Source: Anaerolineae bacterium
GTDB lineage: Bacteria > Chloroflexota > Anaerolineae > Anaerolineales > RBG-16-64-43
Reading direction: 5' to 3'
Length of the DNA stretch: 33,651 bases
Assembly (NCBI GenBank): GCA_003141675.1
Contig: PLND01000031.1
Span: forward strand, 29,885 to 63,535
The notes under the pieces were generated by a model. It saw only the letters and a list, made by a program, of their open reading frames with translations, was not told where the DNA came from and did not search any database. The translations under genes and the position numbers were made by a program. Positions 18,711 to 27,422 of this stretch are shown here, in pieces; the stretch's first letter is position 1; the number at the start of each line of letters is the position of its first letter.

Positions 18711-19421
18711 ATGGCATCCAAAAGAGATTATCTCCATCGACAATGGGAGCCCATCCGCAACGTTCTTCGCTTCCTCATGGGCCACGTCGGTTTCCGCTAC
18801 CTGGCCAAGATCGATTCCGTCGAAGGCGTGGAGATGGTGCCCGAAAAGGGCCCCGGGATCATCATGTTCAACCACATAGCCTTCATCGATGGCATCGCGA
18901 TTCTCTCCACCCTCAAGCGCAACGCGGTGCCGCTGGTGAAAACCGAAGCCGGAGCCATCCCGTTCTGGGGGATATTCCCCGCGCTGTGGGGCGCCATTCC
19001 CATCCGGCGCGGTGAGTTTGACCGCCGCGCGTTGGAACAGGCCTTGGCCGTTTTGAATTCCGGCGAGTTACTCATGATCGCGCCAGAAGGCCACCGCAGT
19101 CCGGCGCTGATCGAGGGCAAAGAGGGGTTGGCATACATCGCCGCACGAACCAAGGCGCCGATCATCCCCGCGGTCATCGAAGGCAGCGAGGGGTTCCCTT
19201 CCTTGGATCCCAGACGCTGGTCGCAGCCCGGCGCGCGAATCCGCTTCGGTAAACCGTTCAGGTTCCGCTTGCCAAAGGGCCGCATACCGCGCGAGTGGCT
19301 GCGCAAGATGACCGACGAGGCGATGTATCGACTGGCTTCGCTGCTCCCGCCCGTACGCCGCGGCGTATATGGCGATCTTCGCCTGGCGACGACCGATACG
19401 ATTGAATTCCTCTCTCCGTGA
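18711..19421 (+). CDS. plsC: 1-acyl-sn-glycerol-3-phosphate acyltransferase family protein
   Basis: A membrane-associated acyltransferase that would convert lysophosphatidic acid to phosphatidic acid in phospholipid synthesis. The family H-x4-D motif is NHIAFIDG (H55, D60). GAIPIRRGEFDRRAL is the glycerol-phosphate-binding region, APEGHRSP (E126-R129) is a variant of the EGTR block, and PIIPAVIEG is the last block. The length, 236 aa, is typical. AGAAGGAAG lies just before the ATG. The stop overlaps the GTG start of the next gene (GTGA). The acyl donor cannot be told from sequence. Confidence 0.9.
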   Translation: MASKRDYLHRQWEPIRNVLRFLMGHVGFRYLAKIDSVEGVEMVPEKGPGIIMFNHIAFIDGIAILSTLKRNAVPLVKTEAGAIPFWGIFPALWGAIPIRRGEFDRRALEQALAVLNSGELLMIAPEGHRSPALIEGKEGLAYIAARTKAPIIPAVIEGSEGFPSLDPRRWSQPGARIRFGKPFRFRLPKGRIPREWLRKMTDEAMYRLASLLPPVRRGVYGDLRLATTDTIEFLSP

Positions 19422-20785
19422 GCCAAAATCCTTTTCCGGCAAAGTCGAAAGGGGGTCTGATATCGGCCGTCGGGCGGGGGAGCCTGGCGGCGAAGGTCGG
19501 CATCCGCCCGGGCGACCGGCTCCTCGAAGTCAATGGCCATCCCGTCGAGGACGTCATCGACGTGCAGTATCACTCCGCCGATGACGTCCTCTCCTTTACA
19601 TGGAAAAGGGGCGGCCGGATTCTGACCGGCGAGGGCCGACGGACCACGCGCTCAACCCTCGGTCTGGATTTCGTTCATCCCACGTTCGACACCGACATCC
19701 GCCGCTGCAACAACCGATGCCCGTTTTGCTTCGTTGTCCAGATGGCTCCGGGCATGCGCCGTACGCTGCATATCAAGGACGACGATTACCGCTATTCCTT
19801 CCTCTATGGGCATTTCGTCACGTTGACCAATCTTTCCGAGCACGACTGGAGCCGCATCGCCCAGCAGCGCCTCTCGCCGCTTTACGTCTCGGTCCACGCC
19901 ACCGAGCCGGAAGTGCGCGAGAAAATCCTGGGCAACCCGAAAGCGGGCGATATCCTCGAGCGATTGCGGTTCCTTGCCGAGAACCACATCGAGGTTCACA
20001 CGCAGGTTGTGCTTACGCCGGGCTGGAACGATGGGGAACATCTGGAACGCACGCTGCGGGATCTGGCGGGCCTATATCCCTCGATCCGTTCCTGTTCGGT
20101 CGTCCCGGTCGGTGTGACGCGGTTTCAAAAGAACGGCATCCGGCCGTACGATCCCTTGTCGATGGAGACGGTGATTCGACAGGTGGAGGCGGCACAGCAG
20201 GATTTTCTCCATCGGTTGGGATCGCGCTTTGCGTTCCTCACCGACGAATGGTATCTGGGTGCCGGCACTCCGGTACCGCCGCTGGATTCCTATGAGGAAA
20301 TCGACTTGCGCGAAAACGGTCTGGGGCTGACGAGGAATTTTCTGGAAGATTGGAACGCGGTCAAACACAGGCTCCCCAAATTAAAAAAAGAATTCAAAAA
20401 ATCGGGAGCCACGCTGGTCACCGGCAAGTTATTTCAAAAAACGCTGGAATCGGCCGCAGAGGAATTCTCCGGCCTGACCGGAATTCCATTGACCATTGTC
20501 GGTGTAGCCAACCACTGTTTCGGAGAGACGGTCACCGTGGCCGGATTGCTTACCGCGCGCGATGTGATTGACTCGCTCAAGGGGAAGGAAGGGACCGGTC
20601 CCGTACTGCTGCCGCAAATCATGTTCTGCCATCCCGGGACGATCGCATTGGATGATCTCTCCCCGCTGGACGTCGCCCGCGCTGTCGGCTCGGATGTTTA
20701 TCTCGTCGATACGATGAACGGAGTGGCGGATACTTTTTTTGGAAAAAATTCACTTCGGTTCGGAGCGCGGAGCAACCGAAAATAA
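19418..20785 (+). CDS. DUF512 protein: PDZ domain + radical-SAM-like domain
   Basis: A 455-aa protein of the conserved DUF512 family, whose function is unknown. A PDZ-like domain (about 10-70, with GSLAAKVGIRPGDRLLEVNG) precedes a radical-SAM-like domain with a Cys cluster CNNRCPFC (C97, C101, C104; a C-x3-C-x2-C pattern that could bind a 4Fe-4S cluster), LYVSVHATEPEVREKILGN and the C-terminal DUF512 region with TGIPLTIVGVANHCFGETVTVAGLL. The start is a GTG at 19418 that overlaps the plsC stop, so translational coupling is likely. It ends in a C/G-run hairpin shared with the converging histidine kinase gene. Relatives are often linked with lipid genes or the GTPase gene der; der is not in this window. 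Confidence 0.9.
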   Translation: MSQNPFPAKSKGGLISAVGRGSLAAKVGIRPGDRLLEVNGHPVEDVIDVQYHSADDVLSFTWKRGGRILTGEGRRTTRSTLGLDFVHPTFDTDIRRCNNRCPFCFVVQMAPGMRRTLHIKDDDYRYSFLYGHFVTLTNLSEHDWSRIAQQRLSPLYVSVHATEPEVREKILGNPKAGDILERLRFLAENHIEVHTQVVLTPGWNDGEHLERTLRDLAGLYPSIRSCSVVPVGVTRFQKNGIRPYDPLSMETVIRQVEAAQQDFLHRLGSRFAFLTDEWYLGAGTPVPPLDSYEEIDLRENGLGLTRNFLEDWNAVKHRLPKLKKEFKKSGATLVTGKLFQKTLESAAEEFSGLTGIPLTIVGVANHCFGETVTVAGLLTARDVIDSLKGKEGTGPVLLPQIMFCHPGTIALDDLSPLDVARAVGSDVYLVDTMNGVADTFFGKNSLRFGARSNRK

Positions 20786-20817: not shown

Positions 20818-22098
20818 TTATTCCTTACTGTCGTCTGTCAATTGGCCGGTGTTTCGCGCGGGAGGAATGACCGGCAGGCAAATCGTGAAAGTGGATCCCT
20901 CCCCGACCCGGCTCTTGACATCAAGCTTTCCGTGGTGACTTTCGATAATATATTTTGAAATATATAATCCCAGGCCAGTGCCTCGGGCCAGTCCCGTTCC
21001 TTCCTGAGACCGGAAGAATCTTTCGAAGAGGTGCGGCAGGCCTTCGTCGGAGATTCCCTTGCCGGTATCCGAGACCTCGATGTAGACGCTATCCTGGTTT
21101 TTTCCGGAACCATGGTACGCCCGGAGAACTATTTCCCCGTTGGGGCAGTTGTATTTCACCGCGTTGTTGAGCAAATTCAAGAGGGCCTGTTTTATCTTCG
21201 CCCGGTCGGCGGTGACATCCAGCGGATCGCGGATCATATCCTGGCGGAAGAGCAACCCTTGAGCGTGCACCAAAGGGGAGATGATTTCCACGCATTCGGA
21301 AACGAGCGCCGCGGCGGAAAACCGTTCGAGCTGCAGGTGCGCCCGCCCGGATTCCAACCGTGCCAGATCCAGATAATCGTCGGTCAATTCGTTGAGCCGT
21401 TGAATCTCCTGCCGGAACGTGGAGAGGACCGAATGGCGCTGGGACTCGCTGAGATCCTGGCGGTCCAGCAGGGCGGAGGCTGTGGCGAGTGCGGCCAGGG
21501 GTGTACGGATTTCGTGCACTAGTTCGGCGATCAGGTCACTTTGGCGGAAGAGGCGCAGGTTGTCCATGACGGCGGCGGCCTGCCCGGCCAGGGCTTCCAA
21601 CGCGGAAAAATCCTCCGGTTCGAAATCCGCTTGTGATTTATTGATCGCCTCGAGCACTCCGACTGAATTGCCTTTGCTTTTCAACGGGACGGCGAGGATG
21701 GATTTCGGATGGATCGGCGCAAAGGCTGTGAATTCGAAATAGGGACTCTTCGGCTGCCCGGAGGAAGCACCAATGAGGAGCGGTGATCCGGAGGTCAACA
21801 CTTTTCCTGCCAGGCTGCCTTCCTTTGGAATGGATTGGTTTTTAAACGTGGCTGGATTCAGATTTGTGGCCGAAACAACCTGCAGGTCGCCGCTGACCGG
21901 ATCCAAGAGCATCAGAACGGCTGCCTCGCATTCCATAAGCGCCATGCTGCCGTCGATGACCTGCGAATAAATATCCTCCATCTGGACGGTGGAGGCCAGG
22001 CGGTGGATGAGTTCCAGCAGCTTCGCGTAACGCCGCAGAAGGGTCGGGTAATTGCGGATCGCGGTGTCGGGGCCGGTGGTGGATTTTTCGGGAGGCAT
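20818..22098 (-). CDS. GAF-domain sensor histidine kinase
   Basis: A soluble two-component sensor kinase of 426 aa. A GAF domain occupies about residues 25-185 (EAAVLMLLDPVSG, SILAVPLKSKGNSVGVLEAINK) and would bind a small ligand. The HisKA helix carries the phosphorylated H195 in LVHEIRTPLAALATASALL. The HATPase domain has N-box NLLNNAVKYN, G1 SDTGKGIS, an F-box LFERFFR and G2 GTGLGLYISK. No transmembrane segment is present. I chose the ATG at 22098; a TTG at 22110 in the same frame is possible, and neither has a strong ribosome site. It lies downstream of the receiver-CpaE gene on the same strand with a gap of 12-24 bases, so the two probably form an operon, and that receiver is a natural partner. 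Confidence 0.92.
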   Translation of the reverse strand: MPPEKSTTGPDTAIRNYPTLLRRYAKLLELIHRLASTVQMEDIYSQVIDGSMALMECEAAVLMLLDPVSGDLQVVSATNLNPATFKNQSIPKEGSLAGKVLTSGSPLLIGASSGQPKSPYFEFTAFAPIHPKSILAVPLKSKGNSVGVLEAINKSQADFEPEDFSALEALAGQAAAVMDNLRLFRQSDLIAELVHEIRTPLAALATASALLDRQDLSESQRHSVLSTFRQEIQRLNELTDDYLDLARLESGRAHLQLERFSAAALVSECVEIISPLVHAQGLLFRQDMIRDPLDVTADRAKIKQALLNLLNNAVKYNCPNGEIVLRAYHGSGKNQDSVYIEVSDTGKGISDEGLPHLFERFFRSQEGTGLARGTGLGLYISKYIIESHHGKLDVKSRVGEGSTFTICLPVIPPARNTGQLTDDSKE

Positions 22099-22122
22099 AC
22101 GTTGCGCCAAGCGGTTCGCGGC

Positions 22123-23271
22123 TCAGGAACGGGCTTTGGACATGATCCGGTCAGTGACCTGGCGGATCTGGTCGGAGACCATCGCGTTCGGGTCGCGGAC
22201 CACGATCGGCACGCCGCTTTCCGCCGATTGGTAGGCGAGTTCCGGAGCGGGGGTGATCATTCCGATTACCGGCTGGCCGAGAATCTCCTCGATTTTGGCC
22301 CGCGCCATTTGCAGGCTGGAGCGCTCGCGGTTGACCAGGACGAAGTCGACTTTGGATTGTGCCAGGCCGAGGGTTTGCAGATCCGTTACCAGCGCCTTGG
22401 CCATCGTAACCGTGTGGCGCATCGGTTCCACTAGGATGATGACGTGGTCGGAGGCCATAAGCAGCTTGGCGCTAATTTCGGTCAGGCCGTTGCCCAGATC
22501 GATCAATAGGTTTTGGGTCATCCCCGCAAGGACGCGAGCAATCGCCTCGATCCGCGCCGACTGTTGGATCATGGCGAAATCGTGCGGTTCGAATGAACTT
22601 AAAAGCGATCGCAACCCGGAAGGATGGCCGACGATTTCCTTCTCCACGATTGCAGTAGTGATCGGCTCGGGATTGTTCTGCATTAAAGCCGTTAGGCCGG
22701 AGGGTTTGTTGATCCCCAGCAACGCACCCGCGATTCCCAACCCTGGACGGAGCTCCAGCAGGATCACGTCCTGTTTGCGGCTCGCCATGGTCACGGCGAT
22801 ATTCACTGCAAGCGTGCTGGTGCCAAGCCCACCCTTGGCGCCGATCACGCAAACCATATGCGCCTTTTTGGCGGGAAGAGCGGCGGCGGAGGAGGCCTGC
22901 CGGCTACGGCCGAGCAGCGCCTTGACGTGGGCCAACAGTTCCGCGGGATGGGTCGGTTTGGGGAGGTAGTCGTCGGCGCCGGCCTCAAATCCTTGTACTT
23001 TGTCGTCCACCTGGGTTTTTGCGGTGAACATCAAAATCGGGGTGGTTTTGAAGGCGGGATCGGAGCGGATCCGACGGCAAACTTCGAACCCGTCGATGTC
23101 GGGCATCATCACGTCCAACAGGATGAGGTCCGGTTTTTCGGCGGGTACTTTGGAGAGCGCCTGGGTGCCGTTGATCGCTGCGACGATGGTATACCCTTGG
23201 CGTTGCAGCATCATCCCGACTAGTTTTAGGGTGTCAAGATCGTCATCGACGACGAGAATTTTTTCCGCCAT
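22123..23271 (-). CDS. Response regulator receiver fused to CpaE/TadZ/MinD-like ATPase
   Basis: A 382-aa fusion. Residues 1-118 form a CheY-like receiver with D10/D11, phosphoacceptor D53 (LLDVMMPD), T83 and K105 all in place. After a short Ala/Ser linker comes a ParA/MinD-type domain (about 137-380). Its deviant Walker A is GAKGGLGTST (144-153), with signature lysine K146 kept but Thr at the usual second lysine, as in CpaE/TadZ proteins. The next motif is LLELRPGLG, where an Asp is usual, and LLIDLGNGL is the Walker B-like strand. Such proteins localise complexes, classically Tad pili, but no pilus gene is in the window. The start at 23271 gives the canonical receiver N-terminus MAEKILVVDDD, preceded by GGGAGA; an upstream extension in frame would overlap the divergent gene. 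Confidence 0.92.
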   Translation of the reverse strand: MAEKILVVDDDLDTLKLVGMMLQRQGYTIVAAINGTQALSKVPAEKPDLILLDVMMPDIDGFEVCRRIRSDPAFKTTPILMFTAKTQVDDKVQGFEAGADDYLPKPTHPAELLAHVKALLGRSRQASSAAALPAKKAHMVCVIGAKGGLGTSTLAVNIAVTMASRKQDVILLELRPGLGIAGALLGINKPSGLTALMQNNPEPITTAIVEKEIVGHPSGLRSLLSSFEPHDFAMIQQSARIEAIARVLAGMTQNLLIDLGNGLTEISAKLLMASDHVIILVEPMRHTVTMAKALVTDLQTLGLAQSKVDFVLVNRERSSLQMARAKIEEILGQPVIGMITPAPELAYQSAESGVPIVVRDPNAMVSDQIRQVTDRIMSKARS

Positions 23272-23378: not shown

Positions 23379-23424
23379 CATGCCGGAAGCGAATTCTTTC
23401 ATTGCGGGGAAGCAGGGATTCTTC

Positions 23425-26400
23425 ATGACCTTCGAGGTATGGCTTTCCTCTCCCGCGGGTGTTCCGCTCCTGCCCGCGCAATTCCTTTGGACCGCCGTCC
23501 TGACCCTTCTACTGGCGCTGGCGGTTGCAAGGTCCGTTCCCCGGCGGGAGGAAATTCGCCCCGGACGCATACTTTTTTTCATCCTGGGCCTGCTCCTGGC
23601 CGTCCTGGCAGGAGGTTTGGCCATCCTTCGCTTTCCCGCGTCGGGACCCGCGACGGTTGCAGGAGTCCCGATGGCTGCTTTTCAGCCTGCCGCTGGGCTG
23701 CTCGACATCGCCCTTCTGTTGATGGCAGGCGCCTTGATCGGAAAATTCCCGGCGCTCGCATGCGGGCTGGTCCTCGGGGCGGTCCGATCGGTTTTTGACA
23801 CCCATTCGGTGTCCACGATTTTGGAGTACGGGCTGACGGGCTGGGCGATTGCCGAGTGCATGGGGCAGGATTATTCCGGGCGGCTGTTTTCCATCCTGCG
23901 CAGACCCTGGGGCGCGGCGCTCGGGTCGGCCGTCGTGCTGATCGCGCTACGGTTCGGGAGCGAGCTGGGTTCGGCACGGGGGGATTTGATCACGCTATTT
24001 GATTACGCGCTGGCGAGATTCCCCGGCTTGCTGCCGGCCGTTCTATTGGAATGTCTGGCCGGCGCGGCGGAGGTGGAAGGGATCCGGTTACTAGCGGGCT
24101 CCGCTTGGCCCGTGCCCAAACGGCTGAAGGCGACGCGCTATGAGCGCTCGCTGGCCTGGAAGGTCAGCTTGTGGTTGATCCTCCCGATCGCTTTCATGGC
24201 GGCGGCGTTGACCGCCATCGTGGTGATCGACACGCGATCCCAGGCGCGGCTGACCCTGCGTCAAGAAGTGTTGGGAGCGGTCCAGACTGCCCAGAGTGAT
24301 CTACCCGTGGCGATCACGACCGGGCACACGCTTCTGCAAGGCATGAGCTCCAGTCTGCCTTCGGGCATTCCGGATCGGGCCGCGATCGAATCCTATTTGG
24401 GCGACCGGCTGAGCCAGCCTCCGTTCTTTGAACAAATCGCCTTCCTCACGCCCGATGGAACGCCCTTCGCGGCATATCCTCCCAATACCGTTCCCTTCTG
24501 CCAGAGCGAGGAAGAAGCGCAGGGTTGCAGCCTCGCATTGCGCGGGATCGCTTGGGAGGGATGGCTGGCGCCCGACGCCAACGGAAAAACGTGGATTGCG
24601 TTCACCCAGCCGGTCTGGGATTCGGACGGTAAGGTTCGCGGGGCGCTCGTCGGACGGACCGCACTGGAAACCAATCCGCTTCTAAAAGCCATCCCCGCCG
24701 CGTTCCAATCTTTGACGGGCGGGCAGGGGATGTTCCTCGACGATACGAATCGTGTGCTCTACCCGTCGAATACGGAACCCTGGACTACGGATACGCTGGT
24801 GGAACAGGATAGTCAGGGCGGCGAATGGTTCCTGGGTTCGATGCCGGGCGGGGGTACGAGGCTTTCCTATTTGCTCCCGCTGGCATATCCAAAATGGAAG
24901 ATCGCCATCCGGGTTCCCGAGGCGTTCGCCTTTCGTACGGCCCTGGAGACCGGATTGCAGGTGGGGATCTTCGCTTTTTTCATGACCTTGCTGGTGGGCT
25001 TGCTGGCGCTTTTCATCGCCCACCAGATCACTTCACCCCTGCGCCAACTGGCGGAATCCGCCGGATTGATTGCGGCGGGGGATTTGGAACGGACGGTTAC
25101 TGTAACGGGGGAGGACGAGATGGGACGGCTCGGGAGATCTTTGGAATCCATGCGCCGCAGCCTGCGCCGACAGATGCGCGATCAGGAGATCCTGTTACAG
25201 GCGGTGCAAGGGATGACTTCGAGCCTCGATCTGGAACGGTCGATGGAAATTCTTCTGCGCAGCGTCCAGACGGCAACCGGGGCGCAGACGGTGCGGTTGG
25301 TGCTGGCGCCGTCGTTTCGCGGATCGTATCCGGTGGACCGTTTCTCACTTGGAGAGGAAGCCGCGGCGCTGGGATCGATCGACGAGCGGATCCTCGCGGC
25401 CGTCCGCGACGGACCGGGCGCAGGCCGGCAAACCCCCTTCACAGCCAATCGCAATTCGGGCACGGACGAGGGAATATTCGAACCGCTCCCCGGTACGGTC
25501 GGCGCGCTGATCGCTTTGCGGATCGCCAGCGCGAGTGCGTTCTATGGGGCGCTGTGCGTGGCTTATCGCGAACCGCAGGCGTTTGAGGAGGGTTTGCTCG
25601 AATTGTTGGCCGGGTTTGCCAACCAGGCTTCGCTGGCCATCACCAACGCCCGCCTGTTGGACGGCACCGAATACGAGCGCGAACGCCTGGCCGCCATTCT
25701 CGAGGCCATCCCGGAAGGGGTTCTGGTAGTGGATGCGGAAGATTGCCTGCAGTACGCCAACCCCACGGCCGAGGCGATGCTGGGAGCCGGATTGCTCGGG
25801 GTGGGGCGTCCGGTTGCGGAAAGCGTATCCCAACCGGATCTGGCGCGGCTCCTGGCGGAATCGGCCGTCGAGCCGCGCGTAATGGAATTTTCCGGCGCGG
25901 GAGGACGCCGATTGCAGGGGGTTGTGCGCAGCGTGCGCAGCGCCGACGGGGATGGAGTGTGGCAGGTGTGCGTGCTGCAAGATGTGACTTCCTTCCGCCA
26001 GCTTGACGAATTGAAAACGGAATTCGTGCACACCGTCAGCCACGACCTGCGCCGTCCTTTGACGATGATGGAAGGGCTGGTGCATATGATCGAAATGCTC
26101 GGCCCGCTCAACCCAGCTCAACAGGAATATGCCCGGCGGATCCGGCTTTCGGCTCAGGAAATGAACCGGCTGGTCAAGGACCTTCTGGACCTGGGCCGAG
26201 TCGAAAGCGGCGTGGAAATCCGACGCCTTCCGGTGCAGCTCCCGGCGATCATGGCGCGCGTTGTCGACGGGTTGAAACCGGAAGCGGCGGCCAACAGCGT
26301 AAAGCTGCGCGTAAAAATTCCGGAGTCGCTTCCGGATGTTCCCGCGGACGCCTCGCTCCTGGAGCGCGCGCTTGGCAACCTGATGGAAAACGCGATCCGC

Positions 26401-26685
26401 TTCAACCGCCCGGGCGGCACCGTGGACGTGAGCGTAAAAATCTCAGGGGAAACGGTCGTGGTGGTTGTGAAGGATAACGGGATTGGTATCGCGCCGGCCG
26501 ACCAGCCGCGCGTTTTTGAAAAATTCTTCCGGGTCGCGCCCTCATCGGATCCAGAGCATCCCGCCTGGGGGCTGGGGCTGGCGATCGCGAAGAGTGTGGC
26601 CGAATGGCACGGGGGGAAAATCTGGTTCGAGACCAAACTCGGCCAGGGGAGTACGTTTTACCTGGCGTTGCCGATGAAAGGGTAG
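23425..26685 (+). CDS. Large membrane sensor histidine kinase (membrane sensor, Cache-like, HAMP, GAF, PAS, HisKA, HATPase)
   Basis: A 1086-aa hybrid-sensing kinase. About residues 10-230 hold a multi-helix membrane sensor region. A helix at 248-270 leads into an extracytoplasmic region (about 275-505) with features of a Cache-type ligand domain, and a further helix (509-533) leads to HAMP (HQITSPLRQLAESAGLIAAG, about 533-585). A GAF domain (604-747) and PAS domain (749-865, AAILEAIPEGVLVVDAED) follow. The kinase core has phosphorylated H873 (VSHDLRRPLTMMEG), N-box NLMENAIRFN, VKDNGIGIAP, VFEKFFR and GLGLAIAKS. No receiver is attached, so an external regulator is needed; the divergent receiver-CpaE protein is the nearest. 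The start was set at 23425 because of its ribosome site and an upstream -10 box; an ATG at 23380 would add 15 residues. Confidence 0.9.
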   Translation: MTFEVWLSSPAGVPLLPAQFLWTAVLTLLLALAVARSVPRREEIRPGRILFFILGLLLAVLAGGLAILRFPASGPATVAGVPMAAFQPAAGLLDIALLLMAGALIGKFPALACGLVLGAVRSVFDTHSVSTILEYGLTGWAIAECMGQDYSGRLFSILRRPWGAALGSAVVLIALRFGSELGSARGDLITLFDYALARFPGLLPAVLLECLAGAAEVEGIRLLAGSAWPVPKRLKATRYERSLAWKVSLWLILPIAFMAAALTAIVVIDTRSQARLTLRQEVLGAVQTAQSDLPVAITTGHTLLQGMSSSLPSGIPDRAAIESYLGDRLSQPPFFEQIAFLTPDGTPFAAYPPNTVPFCQSEEEAQGCSLALRGIAWEGWLAPDANGKTWIAFTQPVWDSDGKVRGALVGRTALETNPLLKAIPAAFQSLTGGQGMFLDDTNRVLYPSNTEPWTTDTLVEQDSQGGEWFLGSMPGGGTRLSYLLPLAYPKWKIAIRVPEAFAFRTALETGLQVGIFAFFMTLLVGLLALFIAHQITSPLRQLAESAGLIAAGDLERTVTVTGEDEMGRLGRSLESMRRSLRRQMRDQEILLQAVQGMTSSLDLERSMEILLRSVQTATGAQTVRLVLAPSFRGSYPVDRFSLGEEAAALGSIDERILAAVRDGPGAGRQTPFTANRNSGTDEGIFEPLPGTVGALIALRIASASAFYGALCVAYREPQAFEEGLLELLAGFANQASLAITNARLLDGTEYERERLAAILEAIPEGVLVVDAEDCLQYANPTAEAMLGAGLLGVGRPVAESVSQPDLARLLAESAVEPRVMEFSGAGGRRLQGVVRSVRSADGDGVWQVCVLQDVTSFRQLDELKTEFVHTVSHDLRRPLTMMEGLVHMIEMLGPLNPAQQEYARRIRLSAQEMNRLVKDLLDLGRVESGVEIRRLPVQLPAIMARVVDGLKPEAAANSVKLRVKIPESLPDVPADASLLERALGNLMENAIRFNRPGGTVDVSVKISGETVVVVVKDNGIGIAPADQPRVFEKFFRVAPSSDPEHPAWGLGLAIAKSVAEWHGGKIWFETKLGQGSTFYLALPMKG

Positions 26686-27011: not shown

Positions 27012-27422
27012 TTATTCCCAATCCTTGCGGATCTCCAAAGGATTGGCATGATGCTCTTTTTGCTTTTCGGTGTAGAAAATGCATGCCGAAAGGCTGGTTT
27101 CGTCCAAAGAGAAGACGCCATATTCTTCTTGCCAATTAAATATCACCCGTAATAATCCGGATTCATTTATTCGCAATGAGGATGTTCCTTTCACCTGGCC
27201 GATGAAGTTCGAAAGAGATATTGATGGTGGAATTGATGGTGGAACCGAAGCCACCAGATGAACGTGATCCCGACACGCGTTCACCGCGAGCACTCGTCCG
27301 TCCAATCCTGACACTTTGGACCGGATGGAATTAAATAATTGCGATTCCAATTCCGGGATGATCCAGGGTTGGCGATTTTTTGTAGCCCAAATGAAATGGT
27401 AGAATAGCAGGTAATGTGACAT
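27012..27422 (-). CDS. Y1 (IS200-like / REP-associated) tyrosine transposase
   Basis: A 136-aa single-strand DNA transposase of the Y1 HUH superfamily (Y1_Tnp). The HUH metal site is H53-V-H55 in CRDHVHLVASV, and the nucleophile is probably Y117 in the helix CIFYTEKQKEHH. The N-terminal HFIWATKNRQPWI is also typical. The length is that of complete IS200/RAYT proteins, and all key residues are present. The start is backed by a strong AGGAGGGGG ribosome site ending two bases before the ATG, so the gene may be functional. No tnpB partner is present. REP-like hairpins on both sides suggest a REP-associated (RAYT-type) role instead of an ordinary insertion sequence; this is an inference from context. 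Confidence 0.88.
   Translation of the reverse strand: MSHYLLFYHFIWATKNRQPWIIPELESQLFNSIRSKVSGLDGRVLAVNACRDHVHLVASVPPSIPPSISLSNFIGQVKGTSSLRINESGLLRVIFNWQEEYGVFSLDETSLSACIFYTEKQKEHHANPLEIRKDWE

Follow-up and report, generated by a model that had tools for sequence, protein, structure and literature searches.

The protein P0001, encoded in a draft Anaerolineae genome, belongs to a conserved Chloroflexota variant of CpaE/TadZ that is paired with a kinase and has a Walker A motif ordinary for this family. It combines an intact receiver and a CpaE-like architecture with residue losses common to its whole clade, a clade that is separate from the main one of Tad-linked CpaE, and the gene of a GAF-domain histidine kinase lies 12 nt downstream of its own. 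Judged from its sequence, P0001 is most likely a kinase-switched positioning protein of the CpaE type. The full reading, in which it is a second CpaE/TadZ-type protein, belonging to a Chloroflexota clade distinct from Tad-linked CpaE and serving as a two-component output by the entire mechanism proposed below, is given a probability of about 0.45. The features concerned lie in the window, the whole stretch of 33,651 nucleotides that was analysed, as follows.

22123-23271, minus strand: receiver-ParA/MinD protein P0001 of CpaE/TadZ architecture, 382 aa
22921-23259, minus strand: receiver domain, residues 5-117, phospho-acceptor D53 (Pfam PF00072 Response_reg, E 6.5e-32)
22135-22860, minus strand: ParA/MinD-like half, approximately residues 138-379 (PF01656/PF13614; Foldseek 3fkq, 1hyq, 3ea0)
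22813-22836, minus strand: P-loop KGGLGTST, residues 146-153, Thr151 in place of the usual lysine
22741-22755, minus strand: switch-I site ELRPG, residues 173-177, Asp missing at 175
20818-22110, minus strand: GAF-HisKA-HATPase_c histidine kinase, 12 nt downstream of P0001
23380-26685, plus strand: divergent membrane histidine kinase (HAMP, PAS, HisKA and HATPase, by Pfam)

Translation of 22123-23271 on the minus strand gives an open frame of 382 codons with an ATG start and no internal stop. In the receiver the acidic residues D9-D11, the phospho-acceptor D53, T83 and K105 are all in place, their functions being presumably those of standard receivers. The ATPase half is matched by the Pfam families CbiA (1.2e-07), AAA_31 (3.2e-07) and ParA, with the match starting at residues 137-141. 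Both canonical ParA/MinD features, the KGGxGK[ST] P-loop and the switch-I aspartate, are missing: within AKGGLGTSTLA the first lysine (K146) is kept and T151 occupies the second-lysine site, while switch I reads LLELRPG (E173, R175) where two paralogs from the same genome, aligned with it, have MDADYSFG. D258 is retained. Pfam likewise identifies both neighbouring kinases, and the first-pass annotation, which had read from this DNA a receiver with all its phosphorylation residues, the deviant P-loop, a switch I without Asp and two flanking histidine kinases, was therefore right in its description. In NCBIfam 101 families were matched; among the 25 listed, all receiver-containing regulators or kinases, none reached its cut-off, and the best for the P0001 receiver were PleD, PhoB, MtrA, RpaB and OmpR, each below its own whole-protein cut-off. 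The receiver thus resembles in sequence those of PleD and the OmpR/PhoB-type regulators; their outputs, however, are DNA binding or a cyclase, whereas that of P0001 is a ParA/MinD half.

The AlphaFold2 model of P0001 has a mean pLDDT of 88.4 and a pTM of 0.64, with a low-confidence linker at residues 126-134. Its best PDB match by Foldseek is 3fkq, a two-domain protein of E. rectale which we take to be the published TadZ structure (E 3.0e-15, 376 columns, TM 0.50, rmsd 13.8); the high rmsd indicates that the two halves are oriented differently or uncertainly. The other Foldseek hits, which include 1hyq, 1g3q, 2bek and 3ea0, are proteins of the MinD, ParA-family and receiver kinds. A PDB search with an ATPase-half profile likewise gives 3ea0, whose P-loop is KGGDGGS, as its top match. 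P0001 therefore shares with the CpaE/TadZ proteins of Tad (type IVc) pili the receiver and ParA/MinD halves, the deviant Walker A and the match to the 3fkq fold, but differs from them in lying outside any Tad locus, in belonging to a separate clade and in having an adjoining kinase gene. With MinD, ParA and Soj it has in common the fold (1hyq, 1g3q, 2bek) and D258; unlike them it lacks the P-loop lysine and the switch-I aspartate and carries an N-terminal receiver. In positioning ATPases of the ParA/MinD group generally, ATP hydrolysis is regarded as what drives the cycle.

A scan of genome contigs for relatives retained the best 80 of 553 loci, among which 22 (L016-L037) span the receiver and the ATPase half at no less than 37% identity and three others are full-length relatives at about 32%. 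All 22 belong to Chloroflexota, the nearest listed being an Anaerolineales MAG (L016, 82% identity). Searched with the ATPase-half profile, the source genome and the genomes of these 22 relatives each have a single member (E 3.1e-63 or better), and the strongest match after these is at 1.5e-37. Clade members (E 1e-45 or better) occur in 49 of 150 genomes sampled from the class and in 15 of 201 sampled from the phylum; these 15 are all of the class of P0001, and 14 of them are the source genome itself or members of its order. Because the relatives were gathered with a profile of the clade to which P0001 belongs, other receiver-ParA clades are under-sampled.

In a tree of 110 rows, made by a quick method without bootstrap and with long branches flagged, P0001 lies inside a Chloroflexota clade of 63 rows (SH-aLRT 97). 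This clade contains none of the 21 rows of Tad-linked CpaE, 19 of which form a main Tad clade; P0001 does not group with them, so that the placement in a CpaE/TadZ tree which the first-pass annotation had called for sets it apart from the main Tad-linked group. The more distant full-length relatives L038, L039 and L064 fall outside the 63 rows. Two truncated Tad-linked rows, L149 and L167, are outside both the tree and the 21.

The P-loop lysine is missing in all 63 rows of the clade, being replaced by T (45), V (11), A (3), I (2), L (1) or S (1), and the switch-I aspartate is missing in all 63 as well, which makes normal ATP hydrolysis unlikely, as had been proposed at first sight. D10, D53, T/S83 and K105, on the other hand, are present in all 62 receivers in view (that of L205 is out of view; L035 is cut at its 3' end). 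The pattern seen in P0001 is not due to chance, since it recurs in the 22 relatives L016-L037 and holds over the 63 rows. Among the Tad-linked rows the lysine is missing in 15 of 21 and present in six (missing in 16 of 23 if the truncated L149, without lysine, and L167, with it, are counted), the switch-I aspartate is present in 5/21, D53 and K105 are kept in 21/21, and Ser occupies position 83 in 19/21. Both groups thus lack the Walker A lysine as a rule, and within Chloroflexota an intact phospho-acceptor is found beyond the clade of P0001 as well.

Deviant Walker A motifs have also been published for this family. One report describes a Liberibacter CpaE with KGGVGSS, lacking the lysine (PMC8513845), and another an E. 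rectale TadZ whose deviant Walker A still binds ATP for dimerisation and whose receiver is atypical (PMC13170226). The idea that the Walker A change is a special trait of P0001 is consequently abandoned. The literature search, with subscription journals mostly outside its reach, found no paper on the clade of P0001.

The receivers of the clade are better conserved than the ATPase halves, with mean pairwise identities of 58.5% and 31.8%, respectively, and the receiver is the more similar part in 1810 of 1857 pairs (pairs with ATPase halves at least 60% identical being excluded). In the Tad clade, compared in the same way with L160 and L163 left out, the corresponding means are 59.6% and 41.1%, and the receiver is higher in 153/153 pairs. 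The difference fits a reading of P0001 as a kinase output, though a similar trend is seen in the Tad clade. These values also bear on whether P0001 is a decaying paralog without specific function, an explanation to which the loss of canonical catalytic residues from the ATPase half would lend itself; it is very improbable, as the residue pattern persists throughout a clade with a mean ATPase-half identity of 31.8%, the frame is open, and every one of the 62 receivers in view is intact.

Gene order was compared in 62 loci, comprising all 22 of L016-L037 and 40 of the 50 clade places from the class sample outside the source genome (genome G056 is counted twice); 53 of them have at least 1.5 kb of downstream sequence and nine have less. 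Each neighbour was named after whichever of 12 reference proteins it matched best by BLAST, with Pfam checks for three Sir2 and three GAF kinases. Within 2.5 kb downstream and on the same strand, a relative of the GAF kinase is found in 24 of the 53 loci, as a best match rather than proof of orthology, and Sir2 in 25 by matched stretch (22/53 by frame ends); one or the other is present in 31/53 and both in 18/53. In many relatives a Sir2 gene separates those of the receiver-ParA protein and the GAF kinase, as at L025:11140-11904, L019:7183-7944, L027:11161-11931 and others. GatB was found within the same distance in 5/53 loci.

In the window itself the GAF kinase frame opens with TTG, the first ATG being at 22098, and the product is predicted to be soluble, as no 19-residue window exceeds KD 1.6. 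A partner kinase gene adjoining the regulator, one mark of two-component systems, is thus present 12 nt downstream, and the GAF kinase is probably the cognate partner of P0001. The pairing is not universal, however, since 29 of the 53 loci have no relative of this kinase within 2.5 kb downstream. The divergent membrane kinase (23380-26685) has a dCache match below its cut-off, and relatives of it occupy the equivalent position in loci L016 and L017. Of the suggestion that P0001 is a phosphorylation-controlled localisation factor, it is the phosphorylation control that gains plausibility from the 62 intact receivers and the adjoining kinase. A comparable arrangement is reported for Micrococcus luteus, where, according to PMC8467076, CpaB and a PAS kinase are encoded in one operon together with a TadZ/CpaE gene (Mlut_14650, 14640, 14670) and such genes may sit outside the tad cluster. 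Both systems contain a CpaE-type gene and a sensor kinase, but the M. luteus operon differs in having CpaB and a PAS kinase; the likeness is drawn from the published description.

The source genome, a 2.82-Mb draft estimated to be 99.7% complete, does contain Tad genes. The window belongs to its 63.5-kb contig C83, on which no match to T2SSE (E 0.001) or T2SSF was found anywhere, in line with the initial observation that pilus genes are absent from the vicinity. The search for tad genes elsewhere in the genome that the first-pass annotation had suggested revealed on contig C50 a Tad locus that includes a CpaE of its own: it comprises a SAF/RcpC (CpaB-like) protein, a receiver-ParA protein (CpaE), T2SSE (CpaF) and a pair of T2SSF proteins. 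Contig C34 (L100:5432-10557) carries another Tad-like set, a divergent one, with T2SSE and T2SSF over cut-off and RcpC/CpaB and TadE matches just below their cut-offs; the search of this genome gave no receiver-ParA match near it. These two loci rule out the possibility that P0001 comes from a genome without Tad genes. The two receiver-ParA paralogs mentioned above (L097:4219-5361 and L098:18779-19954, on contigs C45 and C58) have the P-loop KGGVGKT and a switch-I DAD, yet an Asn at the phospho-acceptor site. They mirror P0001, with canonical ATPase residues and the phospho-acceptor replaced.

Tad genes immediately beside comparable loci, which the first-pass annotation had named as evidence that would refute its reading, were found in part. 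CpaF lies about 2 kb downstream of a clade member in five loci (5/53 with enough flank, 5/62 overall), namely L172 (family f15) and L173-L176 (family f12), the latter with a second receiver-ParA gene in between; TadB, TadC and CpaB, sought with single queries from the source genome, had no match in the fetched flanks of the 62 loci. The clade members at these five loci sit inside the 63 rows of the tree, in two separate places. In genome G040 a T2SSE gene lies about 14 kb from the clade member on the same contig, and together with the five CpaF loci this contradicts the view that the clade never occurs near Tad genes. The second receiver-ParA proteins of L173-L176 have intact receivers and a P-loop that is unrecognisable in the alignment. 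Downstream of the receiver-ParA gene in L172, a 641-codon open frame (L172:7971-9893) starts like a receiver and matches CpaF; it may encode a receiver-CpaF fusion.

In the class sample 45 of the 49 genomes that have a clade member also have T2SSE, against 65 of the 101 that lack one (Fisher p 3e-4, ignoring kinship), at cut-offs of E 1e-45 for the clade member and E 1e-40 for T2SSE, a family that also includes PilB/GspE-type ATPases. A laxer T2SSE cut-off brings up a match in two of the four member-bearing genomes that had been missed, the comparison group being scored at E 1e-40 only. G143 (96% complete), G066 (82% complete) and G020 have a clade member and no T2SSE match, and G009 has one below the cut-off. 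Among the 22 genomes of L016-L037, 20 contain a T2SSE that passes the cut-off.

These data bear on the proposal that P0001 is an ordinary Tad-pilus CpaE encoded off-locus, with the receiver as a structural dimerisation module and the kinase incidental. Its architecture and deviant Walker A are like those of Tad CpaE, T2SSE accompanies it in 45 of 49 genomes, CpaF lies about 2 kb away in 5/62 loci, and the Tad-like set on C34 has no receiver-ParA match nearby. However, in 21 of 23 genomes another receiver-ParA protein or ParA half (a fragment in G002) already adjoins T2SSE at a different place, and these fall mostly in a clade separate from that of P0001; moreover, the gene is kept in genomes without T2SSE, and its phosphorylation residues are intact in 62/62, whereas the E. 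rectale TadZ receiver is described as atypical (PMC13170226). This last argument is weaker within Chloroflexota, where all 21 Tad-linked rows likewise have the phospho-acceptor Asp and the Lys. On balance an off-locus CpaE is rather unlikely, though it deserves serious consideration.

A different proposal is that P0001 is unrelated to pili and acts as a two-component output that positions or sequesters another complex, perhaps with an acetylation input through Sir2. This would be consistent with the downstream Sir2 genes in 25/53 loci, the presence of Sir2 or the GAF kinase in 31/53 and of both in 18/53, the Pfam-checked Sir2 identity in three loci and the retention of the gene in genomes without T2SSE over cut-off; furthermore, CheY, a receiver protein, is reported to be deacetylated by E. 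coli CobB (PMC2883070). The co-occurrence with T2SSE and the five CpaF-adjacent loci point instead to pili. Sir2 has no match in the source genome or in G001 and so is not needed here, which speaks against such an input; as a component of the window's own system it is rejected. The non-pilus alternative is accordingly doubtful, without being negligible.

For the preferred reading, a kinase-switched CpaE-type protein, the following mechanism may be envisaged. D53 would be phosphorylated by the GAF kinase, whereupon the receivers would dimerise and thereby join two ATPase halves as an ATP-bound sandwich that would persist for a long time, hydrolysis being presumably weak or absent. The dimer would then dock on the membrane and position or gate a partner, for which the likeliest candidate is the CpaF motor of a Tad-type pilus from another locus, and would be released by dephosphorylation rather than by ATP hydrolysis. 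CpaE/TadZ proteins are expected to have an amphipathic C-terminal helix that contacts the membrane; in P0001 a predicted C-terminal helix (residues 364-381) has a hydrophobic moment of 0.55, but its mean hydrophobicity is negative (-0.34), so that membrane docking is unsure. Counted in favour of the Tad link are the T2SSE co-occurrence and the CpaF-adjacent loci, and counted for the preferred reading are also the published accounts of the M. luteus CpaE-kinase operon (PMC8467076) and of Caulobacter, in which CpaE dimers are modelled as a ring encircling CpaF (PMC13170226). Counted against this reading are the members in genomes without T2SSE over cut-off and the 48 of 53 loci in which CpaF is missing within 2.5 kb downstream.

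A broader formulation, put forward quite tentatively, is that P0001 represents a ParA/MinD-type positioning protein switched on and off by a kinase through phosphorylation, in place of ATP hydrolysis: ATP would serve as structural glue alone, the dedicated GAF kinase would set the dimer, and in many relatives deacetylation by a sirtuin encoded within the gene cluster would add control. In this clade the hydrolysis residues are lost, the phosphorylation site is kept and a kinase gene is often close; with such a residue pattern and a kinase nearby, the replacement of hydrolysis by phosphorylation as the clock of the cycle can be tested with two adjacent genes. The clade thus provides a lead on the signalling use of CpaE-type receivers in Chloroflexota.

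Elsewhere in the window, a PDZ-radical SAM-DUF512 protein is encoded on the plus strand at 19418-20785, its TIGR03279 match being below cut-off, and an IS200-like Y1 transposase on the minus strand at 27012-27422 (Pfam PF01797, E 4.3e-19).
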